A DNA stretch of 33,944 bases from an uncultured Solirubrobacterales bacterium (GTDB lineage Bacteria > Actinomycetota > Thermoleophilia > Solirubrobacterales > Solirubrobacteraceae): assembly GCA_903821395.1 (NCBI GenBank), contig CAIJLJ010000063.1, positions 1 to 33,944 on the forward strand. Direction: 5' to 3'. The position numbers were made by a program, and so were the translations under genes. The notes beneath the pieces are model-generated. The model was not told where the DNA came from, ran no database searches, and worked only from the letters and a program-made list of their open reading frames with translations. This document shows, piece by piece, positions 26,458 to 32,216 of this stretch (its first letter is position 1; each line of letters begins with the position of its first letter).

Positions 26458-26483
26458 GAAGGGCGTCCTGCGGGGCGCCCTTC
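26458..26483 (+). terminator. Terminator or attenuator after rplL
   Basis: GAAGGGCG (26458-26465) pairs perfectly over 8 bp with CGCCCTTC (26476-26483) around a 10-nt loop, followed by TGCGTTT. It lies 23 bp past the rplL stop. It would separate high-level ribosomal protein expression from the downstream genes. Confidence 0.7.
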
Positions 26484-26526
26484 TGCGTTTCCGGGGCCGT
26501 CCGGCGTGCCTGTTCGACTGTTATCT

Positions 26527-27270
26527 GTGACCCACCGGTTCAACTTGGTCCGGCGCGCCGAGGCAAGCCATTCCTACGGCTTCGTGATGTTCTTCGTCGT
26601 CGGGACGATCGTGCTTGCCGTGGCGATCCCCGAGAGCAGCTCCTGGAGGGCTTCGATCGTCGTCTGCCAGGCCTTGGCAGCCGTCATCGCCTGCTGGACC
26701 TCCGATGCGCCGCAGCGCGTCTTCAGGATCGTCCTTATCTTCTCGGTGCTTGGCGTTCTCGGGGCGATCGGACTCGGTGTCTTCGGTGGCACCAATTCGC
26801 CTGCCGGTCGAGCGATGAACGTGCTGGGCGTCGTTGTCGTCGCCGCGGTGATCATCAGGGGCATCGTTCTCGACATTGAGACTGAGGGAGTCCGAGGGCG
26901 CGCGGTAGCTGGCGCGCTCACCATCTACTTGCTGTTCGGGACGCTCTGCGGTTTCGTTTACGGCCTCGAGGAGTCGATCAGCAACAACCCCGTGCTGCAT
27001 GCGTCAAATTCGACGCTGGAAGCCAACGGGTCAACCTCGGCGAACATGTACTTCTCGTTCGTAACGCTGACGACCGTCGGTTACGGCGACCTGACTCCTG
27101 TCTCCGGAGGCGCCCGCGCGACGGCAATCTTTGAGGCGCTCGTCGGCCAGCTCTATCTGGTCGGCATCGTCGCGACGCTTGGCGGGGCGCTCGGAAAAGG
27201 CAGAGGCGGGCTAAAGAACGAGCTCGCTCCGGAGGCTGCTTCGGCGCCGCCGACAAATTCCGACTCCTAG
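26527..27270 (+). CDS. Six-TM potassium-channel-like protein, copy A
   Basis: 247 residues. Hydrophobic segments at about 19-35, 42-58, 67-87, 96-115, 126-147 and 198-222, with a pore loop bearing the K+ filter TTVGYGD (182-188) between the last two. This is the Ion_trans_2 pore layout. The fourth segment lacks the regular Arg ladder of voltage sensors, so voltage gating is doubtful. The C-terminal tail (about 225-247) is short, with no RCK domain. The GTG at 26527 was chosen over GTG 26506 because it aligns without gaps with the start of copy B. It sits between rplL and rpoB, where no ion channel is expected. By hand count about 173 of 228 residues match copy B. Confidence 0.88.
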   Translation: MTHRFNLVRRAEASHSYGFVMFFVVGTIVLAVAIPESSSWRASIVVCQALAAVIACWTSDAPQRVFRIVLIFSVLGVLGAIGLGVFGGTNSPAGRAMNVLGVVVVAAVIIRGIVLDIETEGVRGRAVAGALTIYLLFGTLCGFVYGLEESISNNPVLHASNSTLEANGSTSANMYFSFVTLTTVGYGDLTPVSGGARATAIFEALVGQLYLVGIVATLGGALGKGRGGLKNELAPEAASAPPTNSDS

Positions 27271-27364
27271 TCCGTTTGGCGCTGACGCCGCGCCAATAGT
27301 CGGACTTCCGGGGCGGCGTCCGTGACCGCCGATGCGCATCGCAGGTGGGGCCTCCTTAGCCTTT

Positions 27365-27373
27365 TGCTACTTT
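27365..27373 (+). promoter_or_regulatory. Extended -10 box TGCTACTTT, copied from rpoB
   Basis: TG-C-TACTTT is an extended -10 element that matches the rpoB copy TGCTATCTT at 28405-28413. Upstream, TGGGGC (27345-27350 region) is also shared with rpoB (TGGGGT). It is the likely promoter for the leader frame and channel B. Confidence 0.55.
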
Positions 27374-27381
27374 CCGATTTC

Positions 27382-27400
27382 GCGCGTGGCAGTCATGCGC
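27382..27400 (+). promoter_or_regulatory. Leader hairpin, copied from rpoB
   Basis: GCGCGTG (27382-27388) pairs with CATGCGC (27394-27400) around GCAGT. Compared with the rpoB copy the right arm has one C-to-T change that keeps pairing as G-U, while the loop has changed freely. Confidence 0.6.
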
Positions 27401-27445
27401 AGATCAAAATTATCCCGTAAGCCTTTGCCCCCTAGGAGTCGCCGC

Positions 27446-27532
27446 TTGTCCTGCGTAGAAGTTCCACGAACGCGCACTTTTTCTGCGCACCTCGAGTACA
27501 GGCTCGGGGTTGCCAACGTGACCCACTCGTGA
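27446..27532 (+). CDS. 28-residue leader frame, truncated copy of the RpoB N-terminus, coupled to channel B
   Basis: AGGAG (27434-27438) precedes a TTG start by the same 7 bases as in rpoB. The product MSCVEVPRTR... aligns without gaps with the RpoB start [10 protein letters not shown]... (shared PRTR, A, LE, V and N at matching positions), then ends at TGA (27530-27532). That stop overlaps the GTG start of channel B (27529) as GTGA. The frame has therefore stayed open since duplication, although it can no longer make polymerase. It may act as a translated leader that delivers ribosomes to the channel start, or simply be a remnant that has not yet decayed. Confidence 0.7.
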   Translation: MSCVEVPRTRTFSAHLEYRLGVANVTHS

Positions 27533-28218
27533 GTCAGATCTCAAACCTCTGGCGGCGCGTGGGGGCAAGCCACTCCTACGGCTTCGTGATGTTCTTCGTC
27601 GTCGCCACGATCGTCTTGGCGGTAGCGATTCCTGACGACAGCAGGTGGCGCGCTTCGATCGTTATCTGCCAAGCGATCTCGGCAGTGGTCGCCTGCTGGA
27701 CCTCAGACGCTCCGAAGCGGCTCTTCCAGCTGGTGCTTACCTTCTCGACGGTATCGATCCTTGCCGCGATCGGGTTTGGCGTGTTTGGTCAAGTTGGTTC
27801 GACTGCGGGTCGGACTGTGAACGTGATCGGCGTGCTGGTCGTCGGCGCGGTGATCGTCAGGGGCATTGTGATTGACATCCAGGCCGAGGGGGTGCGGGGG
27901 CGAGCGGTCGCCGGCGCGCTGACGATCTACCTACTTTTCGGAACCCTCTGCGGGTTCATCTATCGCCTCGAGGAGTCACTCAGCTCGGATCCCGTGCTCC
28001 ACGCTGCAAACCCGTCGATCACTGACGATGGGTCCACCTCAGCAAACATGTATTTCTCGTTCGTCACGCTTACTACGGTCGGCTATGGCGACCTCACCCC
28101 GATCTCAGGTGCGGCACGCGCCACGGCAATTTTTGAGGCGCTCGTTGGCCAGCTCTACCTGGTAGGGATCGTTGCGACGCTTGGTGGGGCGCTTGGAAAA
28201 GGCAAGGGCAAGCTGTAG
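27529..28218 (+). CDS. Six-TM potassium-channel-like protein, copy B
   Basis: 229 residues, gap-free alignment with copy A over residues 1-228. The pore regions are identical: residues 121-140, 171-190 (filter TTVGYGD) and 201-220. Most changes fall in TM3 (71-90) and in the turret (151-168). It ends at GKGKGKL, about 18 residues before copy A, although DNA similarity to copy A's tail continues past the stop to the shared AATTCCGAC. The start is GTG, overlapping the stop of the rpoB-like leader frame. It has no own ribosome binding site of quality, supporting coupling. Two such subunits could form mixed tetramers. Confidence 0.88.
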   Translation: MSQISNLWRRVGASHSYGFVMFFVVATIVLAVAIPDDSRWRASIVICQAISAVVACWTSDAPKRLFQLVLTFSTVSILAAIGFGVFGQVGSTAGRTVNVIGVLVVGAVIVRGIVIDIQAEGVRGRAVAGALTIYLLFGTLCGFIYRLEESLSSDPVLHAANPSITDDGSTSANMYFSFVTLTTVGYGDLTPISGAARATAIFEALVGQLYLVGIVATLGGALGKGKGKL

Positions 28219-28256: not shown

Positions 28257-28285
28257 TCGAATTCCGACGGGTGATCCGTTAGACT
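28257..28285 (+). promoter_or_regulatory. Candidate upstream rpoB promoter (TCGAAT-17-TAGACT)
   Basis: TCGAAT (28257-28262) and TAGACT (28280-28285) are separated by 17 bp, the standard spacing for the main sigma factor. The left duplication copy lacks the TAGACT box. It would give rpoB a ~190-nt leader. Confidence 0.5.
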
Positions 28286-28404
28286 GCCGAAATCGGTCAA
28301 TAGTCGTAGCCGCCTAAGTGCGGACGCCGCGCCACATACGCGGTCGTCCAGGGCGGGGTCCGTGAGTGCCGATGCGCCCCGTAGGTGGGGTCTGCGTAGC
28401 CTTG

Positions 28405-28413
28405 TGCTATCTT
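28405..28413 (+). promoter_or_regulatory. Extended -10 box TGCTATCTT of rpoB
   Basis: TG-C-TATCTT, conserved in the duplicated copy (TGCTACTTT). Transcription from here would begin near 28420, placing the hairpin at 28422-28440 at the very 5' end of the mRNA and leaving a ~65-nt leader. Confidence 0.55.
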
Positions 28414-28421
28414 CAGAAGTC

Positions 28422-28440
28422 GCGCGTGAAAGTCACGCGC
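28422..28440 (+). promoter_or_regulatory. rpoB leader hairpin
   Basis: Perfect 7-bp stem GCGCGTG (28422-28428)/CACGCGC (28434-28440) with loop AAAGT. Its pairing is kept in the duplicate at 27382-27400. It could protect the 5' end or serve regulation. Confidence 0.6.
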
Positions 28441-28484
28441 ACCTCGTAGTTGCCCGTAAGCCTCTGAAACTCAGGAGTCGCCGC

Positions 28485-31400
28485 TTGTCCCGTGTAGACG
28501 CTCCACGCACGCGCCGTACCTTCGCGCGCCTCGAAAGCACCATCGATGTTCCCAACCTGATCGACATCCAACGCCGCTCATTTGAGCGCCTTGTCGATCC
28601 CGTCAAGGGGGGACTGCGCGAAACAATCGACGACGTCTCGCCGATTGAGGATTACACCGGAAACCTCGCAATTCAATTCGGCGAACTGGCCTTCGAAGAG
28701 CCTGTCGCCACGATCGAAGAGTGCCGCGAGAAGGACATCACTTACGCGCGCCCACTCTCAATCACCGTCGCCTTCATTAACCGCGAGACCGGTGAGATCC
28801 GTGAGCAGCAGGTCTTCATGGGTGACTTCCCATGGATGACCGACCGCGGCACCTTCATCATCAACGGCACCGAGCGTGTCGTTGTGACCCAGCTGGTCCG
28901 CTCGCCGGGCGCTTACGTGATGGAGCCGAAGGACAAGGAGAAGCAGGTCTTCACCGCCAACTTGATGCCGGCCCGCGGCTCATGGCTCGAGCTGGAGATT
29001 GACAAGAAGGGCAAAGTCTTCGTACGCATCGACCGCAAGCGCAAGCTTCCGGTAACGGTGCTTCTGCGCGCACTCGGCTTCACCGATGACGAGCTGCTCG
29101 AGGTTTTTGAGGACTCGCGTTACATCCGCAACACAATTACTGCCGACCCTCCTCACGCGGAGCCGCGCGCGGAAGACTTCTTCAAGCGCGTTGAGGCGCT
29201 ATCGAAGAAGCTCAAGGGCGCGACGCACAAGAACGACGCTGCGCTCGACAAAGAGGCAGTCGCCGAACTCCTCGCTTGGGTCACCGATGACAAGCGTAAG
29301 TGGAAGGAAGCCCAAGATGACGAGGTCACTGAGCTCACGCAGCTCTTGACCGAGGAGCTCGAGCGCTTCGAGATGAACCGCAGCGCAGGGCTGATTGAAC
29401 TTTTCAAGAAGCAGCGTCCGGGCGAGCCGCCGAGCGTTGAAGCAGCCGAGTCGCTGCTCAACCAGATGTTCTTTGACCCCAAGCGCTACGACCTAACTCG
29501 CGTTGGTCGCTACAAGCTGAACGCGCGCCTTGGGACCGGTGTTGATCTCGAGACTCGCACGCTCACGGTTGAAGACATCGTTGCTTTGATCAAGGAACTC
29601 GTGCTGCTGCCGAAGTTGCTTGGGATTCCAGAGGACGACGAGGTCGAGATCAAGGACTTTGCCGCTGAGGCGCAGTCATTGCCGCGTGAGCCGCTGGTAG
29701 ATCATCTCGATGAGTACGAGCATTTTGGAAACCGTCGTCTGCGAACAGTCGGCGAGTTGATTCAAGACGCTTTCCGCGTCGGTCTCTACCGCATGGAGCG
29801 CGTAGTTCGAGAGCGCCTAACGACTGAGGATGAGGACACGATCACGCCGCAGACGATCGTCAACATCCGCCCAGTTGTGGCGGCGCTGAAGGAGTTCTTT
29901 GGCTCCTCGCAGCTGAGCCAGTTCATGGATCAGACGAACTCGCTCTCTGGCCTCACGCATCGCCGCCGCCTGTCGGCGCTTGGTGCCGGCGGCCTGACCC
30001 GCGAGCGCGCACCGATCGAGGTTCGCGACGTACACCCGACCCACTACGGCCGGATGTGCCCGATTGAAACGCCTGAGGGCCCGAACGTCGGCCTAATCGG
30101 TTCGCTTTCGAGCTACGCCAAGATCTCTGACTTTGGCTTCATCACGACTCCTTATCGCGTCGTCAAGGACGGCGTCGTTACCAACGAGGTTGTCGATCTC
30201 GATGCCACGCAGGAAGAGGAGATGCTGGTCGCCCAGGCCAACCATCCAATCGATGAGAAGACCGGCAAGCTGCGCGGCCCTGAAGTTATCTGTCGTACGC
30301 ACGCCGGTCAGTACGTGACCGTTGCGCCGAAGGACGTTGACCTCGTTGACGTCTCGCCTCAGCAGATCTGGTCGGTTGCGACGGCGATGATTCCTTTCCT
30401 CGAGCACGACGACGCCAACCGCGCTCTGATGGGCTCCAACATGCAGCGCCAGGCAGTCCCGCTGCTGGTTGCAGACGCACCGCTCGTAGGTACCGGGATG
30501 GAAGCGCGAGCAGCGCTCGATACCGGCGACGTCCTGCTTGCCGGCATCGACGGCACCGTCACCTTCGTCGACGCTGAACGAATCGTGATTGAGGGCAAGG
30601 AACGCGAAGAGCATCTGCTCAGCAAGTTCCAGCGCTCAAACCAAGGAACGTTGATCCATCAGCGGCCACGCGTGAAGAATGGCGAGAAGGTCAAGGCTGG
30701 CCAGGCGCTTGCCGACGGCGCATCGACCGATCACGGTGAGATGGCTCTTGGTAAGAACCTGATGGTCGCCTTCATGGCTTGGGAGGGCTACAACTTTGAG
30801 GACGCGATCATCCTCAGCAGCCGCCTCGTCAAGGACGACGAGCTGACTTCGATTCATATCGAGGAGTACGAGGTTGATGCCCGCTCAACGAAGCTCGGCG
30901 ACGAGGAGATCACGCGTGACATTCCGAACCGTTCGGAAGAGTCGCTGCGTAACCTCGACGACCGCGGCATCGTCCGCGTTGGTGCCGAGGTCCTTTCCGG
31001 CGACCTGCTTGTAGGAAAGGTGACGCCGAAGGGCGAGACCGAGCTGACGGCGGAGGAGAAGCTGATCCGCGCGATCTTCAAGGAGAAGGCACGCGAGGTT
31101 CGCGACACGTCGCTGAAGGTGCCGCACGGTGAGGGTGGCGTCGTAATTGACGTCCAAACATTCTCGCGCGAGGACGAAGACGAGCTGCAGGCAGGCGTTA
31201 ACGACCTGATTCGCGTCTTCGTTGCCAAGAAGCGCAAAATCTCAGAGGGCGACAAGCTTGCTGGCCGTCACGGCAACAAGGGTGTTATCTCGAAGATCGT
31301 CGACGAGCAGGACATGCCTTTCCTTGAGGACGGCACACCTGTTGACGTCATTCTCAACCCGCTCGGCGTACCGAGCCGAATGAACGTCGGTCAGATCCTT

Positions 31401-32216
31401 GAAACGCACCTCGGCTGGGCCGCGGCGCAAGGCTGGTACGACGACGGCACTCAAGCTTTCAAAGAGTCGCGTGACGACGACAATCGCGTCTACGTATCAA
31501 CGCCAGTCTTCGACGGCGCAACAGTTGAGGACGTTGACACGGCGCTCGTCAAGTGGCAGGACGAGCACAAGGGCCGGATCCAGATGGACATCGACAAGTC
31601 GAAGCCGGTTGGAACCCAGGCTTCGGGCAAGTTCACGCTATTCAATGGTCGCACCGGCGAGCCGTTCGAGCAGCAGGTGACGGTCGGTTACATGTACATC
31701 CTCAAGCTGCTGCACCTTGTTGACGACAAGATCCACGCTCGTTCAACCGGTCCGTACTCGCTTGTTACCCAGCAGCCGCTTGGTGGTAAGGCGCAGTTCG
31801 GTGGCCAGCGCTTCGGCGAGATGGAGGTTTGGGCGCTCGAGGCTTACGGCGCCGCCTACACGCTGCAGGAGATGCTGACCGTCAAGTCCGACGACACCGT
31901 TGGTCGCGTTAAGGCTTATGAAGCGATCGTTAAGGGAGAGAACATCCCTGAGCCTTCGATTCCTGAATCTTTCAAGGTGCTGCTGAAGGAGATGCAGTCA
32001 CTCGGGCTCGACGTCAACGTCGTATCCGATTCGGGCGAACGCGCCGAGATTCCAAGCGAGGAAGATGATCTGCTGCGCGCAGCAGAAGAGCTTGGCATTG
32101 ACCTTTCAGGCGCCCGCGCCGGCGTCGCAGTCGAAGGTGAAGAAGGCGAACTTAAGGAAGAGGGTGGCGACGAAGAGGTTGCCGCCGAAGAGACCGAGGC
32201 AGAGGAACCAGCATGA
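28485..32216 (+). CDS. rpoB: DNA-directed RNA polymerase subunit beta
   Basis: 1243 residues from the TTG at 28485. This start was chosen because AGGAG lies 7 bases upstream and both features are conserved in the duplicated copy; the frame is open to a GTG at 28362, but that part is leader. Hallmarks: [13 protein letters not shown], the rifampicin region (29903-29998), [28 protein letters not shown] and [20 protein letters not shown]. Residues ~224-300 hold a charged helical insertion not present in the mycobacterial or E. coli beta at this point, as far as I recall them. The C-terminus ends in an acidic tail ([18 protein letters not shown]...). The stop overlaps the rpoC ATG (ATGA). Confidence 0.97.

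Follow-up and report, generated by a model that had tools for sequence, protein, structure and literature searches.

A probable tandem duplication behind an rpoB leader copy in front of a potassium channel gene, and a covarying RNA in the intact rpoB leader of Solirubrobacteraceae

Why should the start of an RNA polymerase gene stand a second time in front of a potassium channel gene? The question is raised by a 33,944-nucleotide (nt) stretch (the window; contig CAIJLJ010000063.1) of the draft genome of an uncultured Solirubrobacterales bacterium (GCA_903821395.1; 180 contigs), in which the gene order is rplL, channel A, a copy of the rpoB leader, channel B, and rpoB (Table 1). An original prediction, made from the sequence alone, held that positions 27310 to 27532 align with the rpoB 5' region with one 1-nt indel and that channel B has been placed under the same signals as RNA polymerase. 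The alignment was confirmed: in a blastn search of its own genome, the segment had a second match at 28351 to 28560, before rpoB (74% identity; E value, 2e-32), and no third. The aligned part of the copy spans 27311 to 27521, and the single indel in the alignment from 27311 is a base absent from the native leader near 28454. The homology extends upstream of 27310, so that the duplicated unit comprises the channel, the intergenic stretch, and the start of rpoB; ahead of the segment homologous to 27310, the native leader holds an extra promoter and a structured RNA that are lost or broken in the copy.

The simplest history, shown by comparison with relatives, is the tandem duplication of a unit of ~1 kb (i.e., channel, intergenic stretch, rpoB leader, and about 24 to 27 rpoB codons). 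The comparison set comprised 17 genomes of the genus, 3 of which gave no leader match. A search for the same arrangement in these relatives returned the single-channel order: one channel lies directly between rplL and the rpoB leader in the seven congeners with an assembled locus, a channel is likewise found at that place in two more distant members, and no rpoB sequence lies upstream of the channel in congeners, whereas channel B is preceded by the rpoB-leader copy. A second leader copy beside rpoB occurs in the window genome only (1 of 17); the second leader match of one congener, G008, lies across a contig break from the first. No second carrier of the arrangement was found in the genus search, the genome-contig scan, or plasmids. 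The window thus contains two diverged direct-repeat copies of a unit that is single copy in relatives, and the second channel copy is joined to a promoter previously not its own, the copied promoter being known from sequence.

Judged from these alignments, the leader copy is the duplication junction: unit 1 ends with it, and unit 2 begins with channel B. The join probably took place where rpoB CTGATCGAC and the start of the channel, GTGACCCAC, resemble each other imperfectly over a short run, in the reading frame set by rpoB codon 1, and its first product would have been an in-frame RpoB(1-24)-channel fusion. A later 11-nt insertion may have split this fusion, creating the GTGA overlap at which the leader frame now ends. 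Recent gene conversion between the copy and the rpoB leader was considered and rejected: the copy has neither the window-only change nor the three changes that the window shares with G008 and G012. In G008, two contigs (L049, 9100 to 9227, and L050, 1 to 128) share exactly 128 bases, an overlap that stops at rpoB codon 27, close to the window's duplication junction; strains may differ here, or some members of the population may carry a duplication.

Table 1. Features of the rplL-rpoB interval, in window coordinates
Feature	Positions	Strand	Basis or remark
Channel A, K+ channel (PF07885), ancestral-position copy behind rplL	26527..27270	+	Pfam E 2.7e-13; congeners' single channel sits there
Degenerate leader-RNA copy	27276..27373	+	R1 30.7 bits vs 115.2 native; alignment
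P2-like extended -10, TTTGCTACTTT	27363..27373	+	Native TGTGCTATCTT 28403-28413; TGnTANNNT kept, upstream G lost
Hairpin GCGCGTG (27382-27388)/CATGCGC (27394-27400)	27382..27400	+	Near expected 5' end of P2 transcript
Shine-Dalgarno sequence AGGAG of leader frame	27434..27438	+	7-nt spacer TCGCCGC, then TTG 27446
Leader frame, RpoB-like N-terminus, 28 codons, LSCVEVPRTRTFSAHLEYRLGVANVTHS	27446..27532	+	Stop TGA 27530-27532 within GTGA
GTGACCCAC, probable duplication junction	27518..27526	+	Equals channel A start; rpoB has CTGATCGAC at same place, same frame; inferred from sequence comparison
Channel B, second K+ channel copy, intact	27529..28218	+	77% amino acid identity to A; dN/dS 0.16-0.18; PF07885
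Native P1 -10, TAGACT	28280..28285	+	TANNNT upstream of element in 68/69 leaders, mostly 7-8 nt before
Native structured leader RNA between P1 and P2, 121 nt	28293..28413	+	115.2 bits; covariation; family-wide occurrence
Native P2 extended -10, TGTGCTATCTT	28403..28413	+	rpoB-leader alignment of family
rpoB	28485..32216	+	Start TTG 28485; Shine-Dalgarno sequence AGGAG 28473-28477

Between its two promoters (P1 and P2), the native rpoB leader carries a conserved RNA element, for which we defined a model, R1; the native leader matches it over its full length, with paired helices. R1 matched 118 of 146 genomes of the family, including all 71 of high quality, and some genomes of a sister family; no match was obtained in the other sampled families, in other classes, or in the phylum sample. 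At the loci checked, the element lies 174 to 256 nt upstream of the rpoB start. In the family alignment of leaders, its loops ATAGYCG.AGCC, CCACATA, and GGGGTCCGTGA are near invariant, its 3' end TGTGCTANNNT is the extended -10, and TGTGNTANNNT is present in 63 of 69 leaders. A TANNNT -10 mostly stands 7 to 8 nt before it, so that the P1 transcript would begin with the element itself.

Three helices covary (columns 1 to 5/94 to 98, 18 to 23/77 to 82, and 45 to 49/58 to 62). Standard pairs fill 97% of the helix cells, compared with 30 to 51% when the partner strand is slid, and 71 cells show double changes, against 18 in shuffles; MAFFT made the alignment without structural information, but the structure was derived from the very sequences in which pairs were counted, and these counts therefore lean towards it. 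Given the slid-partner control and the number of double changes, covariation by chance is unlikely. Single-sequence folding of the native leader gave a stability not above that of shuffled sequences (z = 0.57), so the structure claim rests on covariation rather than energy. Two genomes had two matches each. In G061 each match precedes an rpoB reading frame, one of the two frames being broken, and a single region seems to have been assembled twice; in G018, a genome with 5% contamination, they lie at C39:26052-26168 and C57:105208-105327.

Measured against this leader, the claim that channel B shares the signals of RNA polymerase holds, at the level of sequence, for the P2 core and for the stretch from the Shine-Dalgarno (SD) sequence to the start, and fails for the RNA between the promoters and for P1, whose -10 reads TTGGCG in the copy (27276 to 27281). 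The R1 score of the copy drops from 115.2 to 30.7 bits, with hairpin H3 (the CCACATA loop) skipped and the ATAG positions deleted in the model alignment. The extended -10, predicted to be kept, retains its TGnTANNNT core and has lost the upstream G, TGTGCTATCTT having changed to TTTGCTACTTT. The predicted hairpin stands, with one G-U pair (its 5' stem strand is invariant among congeners), and so do the AGGAG, its 7-base spacer, and the TTG start. A scan for promoter and terminator consensus sequences found no match.

Substitutions between the copy and rpoB are unevenly distributed: 1 in 19 positions from SD to start, 5 in 30 in codons 1 to 10, and 20 in 51 in codons 11 to 27. The first and last of these differ significantly (Fisher P = 0.007), as does P2 to codon 10 (26 of 114) from codons 11 to 27 (P = 0.039). 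Fourfold sites of channel B give a neutral divergence of 0.35 to 0.48 for its branch; the 0.39 observed in codons 11 to 27 fits this expectation, whereas the values for P2 to codon 10 (0.23) and for the part matching 28353 to 28400 (0.19) are lower.

How, then, would channel B be expressed? Its start is GTG 27529, and inspection of the 15 nt upstream revealed no AGGAG-like SD. It also lacks the short stretch that precedes the congeners' single channel, rpoB codons standing in its place. For these reasons we propose that channel B is transcribed most likely from the P2 remnant, with read-through from channel A adding to it, and that ribosomes would start at TTG 27446, read 28 meaningless codons up to the stop in GTGA, and reinitiate at GTG 27529 (i.e., termination-reinitiation). 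As predicted, the leader frame is open for 28 codons, and its stop overlaps the channel B start at 27529 to 27532; this overlap and the missing SD make coupling of the leader frame to channel B plausible. Translational coupling through an overlapping stop and start is a known arrangement. The present case resembles it in that the leader frame ends in a GTGA holding the next start, with no SD at that second start, and departs from the usual form in that its first cistron is left over from the N-terminal part of another gene, with no conserved product.

We therefore prefer, as the rather more probable account, a tandem duplication after which P1 and the inter-promoter RNA were lost from the copy and the P2 core, 5' hairpin, SD, and TTG retained, channel B probably being expressed through the P2 remnant and termination-reinitiation; the preference follows from the far better preservation of the SD-to-start stretch than of codons 11 to 27. 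Several points weigh against it. The age of the duplication is one: an approximately unbiased test leaves A+B unrejected (P = 0.28), and at each of the three sites that set the window, G008, and G012 apart from the other congeners, the copy has the state of those others. Dating by tree gave no answer, the channel tree lacking resolution around B and the rpoB tree likewise. The TGTG of P2 is damaged in the copy, and the part matching 28353 to 28400 is also slow there without clear reason. Finally, the neutral estimate is wide (95% limits, 0.23 to 0.61), the conservation contrasts were picked post hoc, after the alignment had been seen, and the copy is known from one genome only.

A less likely explanation, still to be taken seriously, is that the copy is a passive scar of the duplication, that channel B is expressed from an unrelated promoter or through transcription running on from channel A, and that the retained SD and start are relics of an event that is not very old. 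The loss of P1 and the RNA and the occurrence of the arrangement in a single genome agree with this explanation, as does the evolution of the leader codons without protein constraint. The 28-codon frame, for which purifying selection had been suggested as a check, shows no sign of it: 19 nonsynonymous and 6 synonymous differences separate it from the window's rpoB, and the proportion of changed nonsynonymous sites (pN, 0.32) about equals that of synonymous sites (pS, 0.28), which led us to discard a conserved leader peptide. The openness of the frame was likewise discarded as evidence of function, since it stays open in 68 to 81% of neutral simulations, and a stop in GTGA is expected for one of the three reading phases. 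A mere scar, however, would not readily account for the single change between SD and start, for a divergence from P2 to codon 10 below the fourfold-site expectation, or for the lack of an SD proper to channel B.

The strong form of the original prediction, in which channel B and its leader are under full RNA-polymerase control and the 28-residue peptide is functional, can draw on the 74% identity and on the retained P2 core, hairpin, SD, spacer, and start; it is very improbable, as neither the P1 -10 nor the RNA found in all high-quality genomes of the family is intact in the copy and pN is not below pS. An assembly artifact in which two strains were joined in one contig is conceivable in a draft genome and is scarcely credible here, because channels A and B are only 77% identical and units 74 to 77% alike lie beyond strain variation, and because the flanks are the native rplL and rpoB, which would require a chimera inside one contig.

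Channels A and B are paralogues, 77% identical over 212 residues. They score 49.5 and 50.1 bits, respectively, against PF07885 (Ion_trans_2; cutoff, 22.5), and both contain TTVGYGDL and hence the TVGYGD selectivity filter; the best PDB matches of the channel are K2P channels. Channel B is under purifying selection, with a ratio of nonsynonymous to synonymous substitution rates (dN/dS) of 0.16 to 0.18. At seven congener loci and at 26504 to 26529 of the window, a GTTGGACT-like sequence stands 7 to 9 nt (15 in one locus) before the GTG, with no SD, which suggests a leaderless transcript for the congeners' single channel. Because channel B is without this GTTGGACT-like stretch, the borrowed rpoB start site is a natural candidate for its expression. 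In two other loci of the genus, a more distant channel (31 to 42% identity) lies between rplL and rpoB, so the neighborhood of channel and rpoB appears to be old. Just after rplL, a G+C-rich hairpin (GAAGGGCGTCC/GGGCGCCCTTC; 26463 to 26486), conserved in the congeners read, is terminator-like, with no T run.

Tandem duplication is already a known route to a promoter switch. In Streptococcus pneumoniae M184, a tandem duplication has put copy 2 of the patAB transporter locus behind a transcription unit that had not preceded it before, and the raised expression of patAB is ascribed to that copy (PMC4432121). The second copy in the window likewise stands behind a new upstream unit; here, in contrast, the duplication is of ~1 kb, is old (copies 77% alike), has the rpoB start as its upstream part, and is known from sequence alone.

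The native leader also has parallels. Mycobacterial rpoB-rpoC is preceded by Promoter I, a conserved inter-promoter region, and Promoter II, and removal of Promoter I raises rpoB reporter output 1.6-fold (PMC6181997). In both groups, two tandem rpoB promoters flank a conserved transcribed stretch, and the mycobacterial Promoter II motif CGCTATNGTT resembles TGTGCTATCTT; the inter-promoter sequences are not detectably related, R1 matches being confined to the window's family and its sister family. Leader RNAs associated with rpoB are a known kind, to which the Lacto-rpoB motif (RF01709), listed in PMC2864571, belongs. That motif is likewise a conserved structured RNA associated with rpoB, but is from Lactobacillales; an Rfam scan of the window yielded no match to the leader RNA and none to RF01709 at E values up to 1. 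In the open-access literature, the leader RNA is apparently an undescribed member of this kind.

By analogy with the removal of mycobacterial Promoter I, a copy with P2 only would be freed from control. Tentatively, and with slightly less than even confidence, we suggest that the native leader is an undescribed cis-regulatory RNA transcribed from P1 that tunes RNA polymerase synthesis, and that channel B inherited only P2 and the start-site part, freed from this control. If so, the output of an RNA polymerase subunit and of a channel would share one promoter and not its regulator.

The duplication offers a readable case of a gene copy that has taken over a promoter, and borrowed a ribosome entry site, from the first part of an essential neighboring gene, and the leader copy reveals which control parts of rpoB were lost (P1 and the RNA) and which were retained (P2, SD, and start). 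The intact leader matters more: all high-quality genomes of the family have this covarying RNA before rpoB, it has no counterpart in Rfam, and it offers a way to test how these actinobacteria set the amount of their RNA polymerase.
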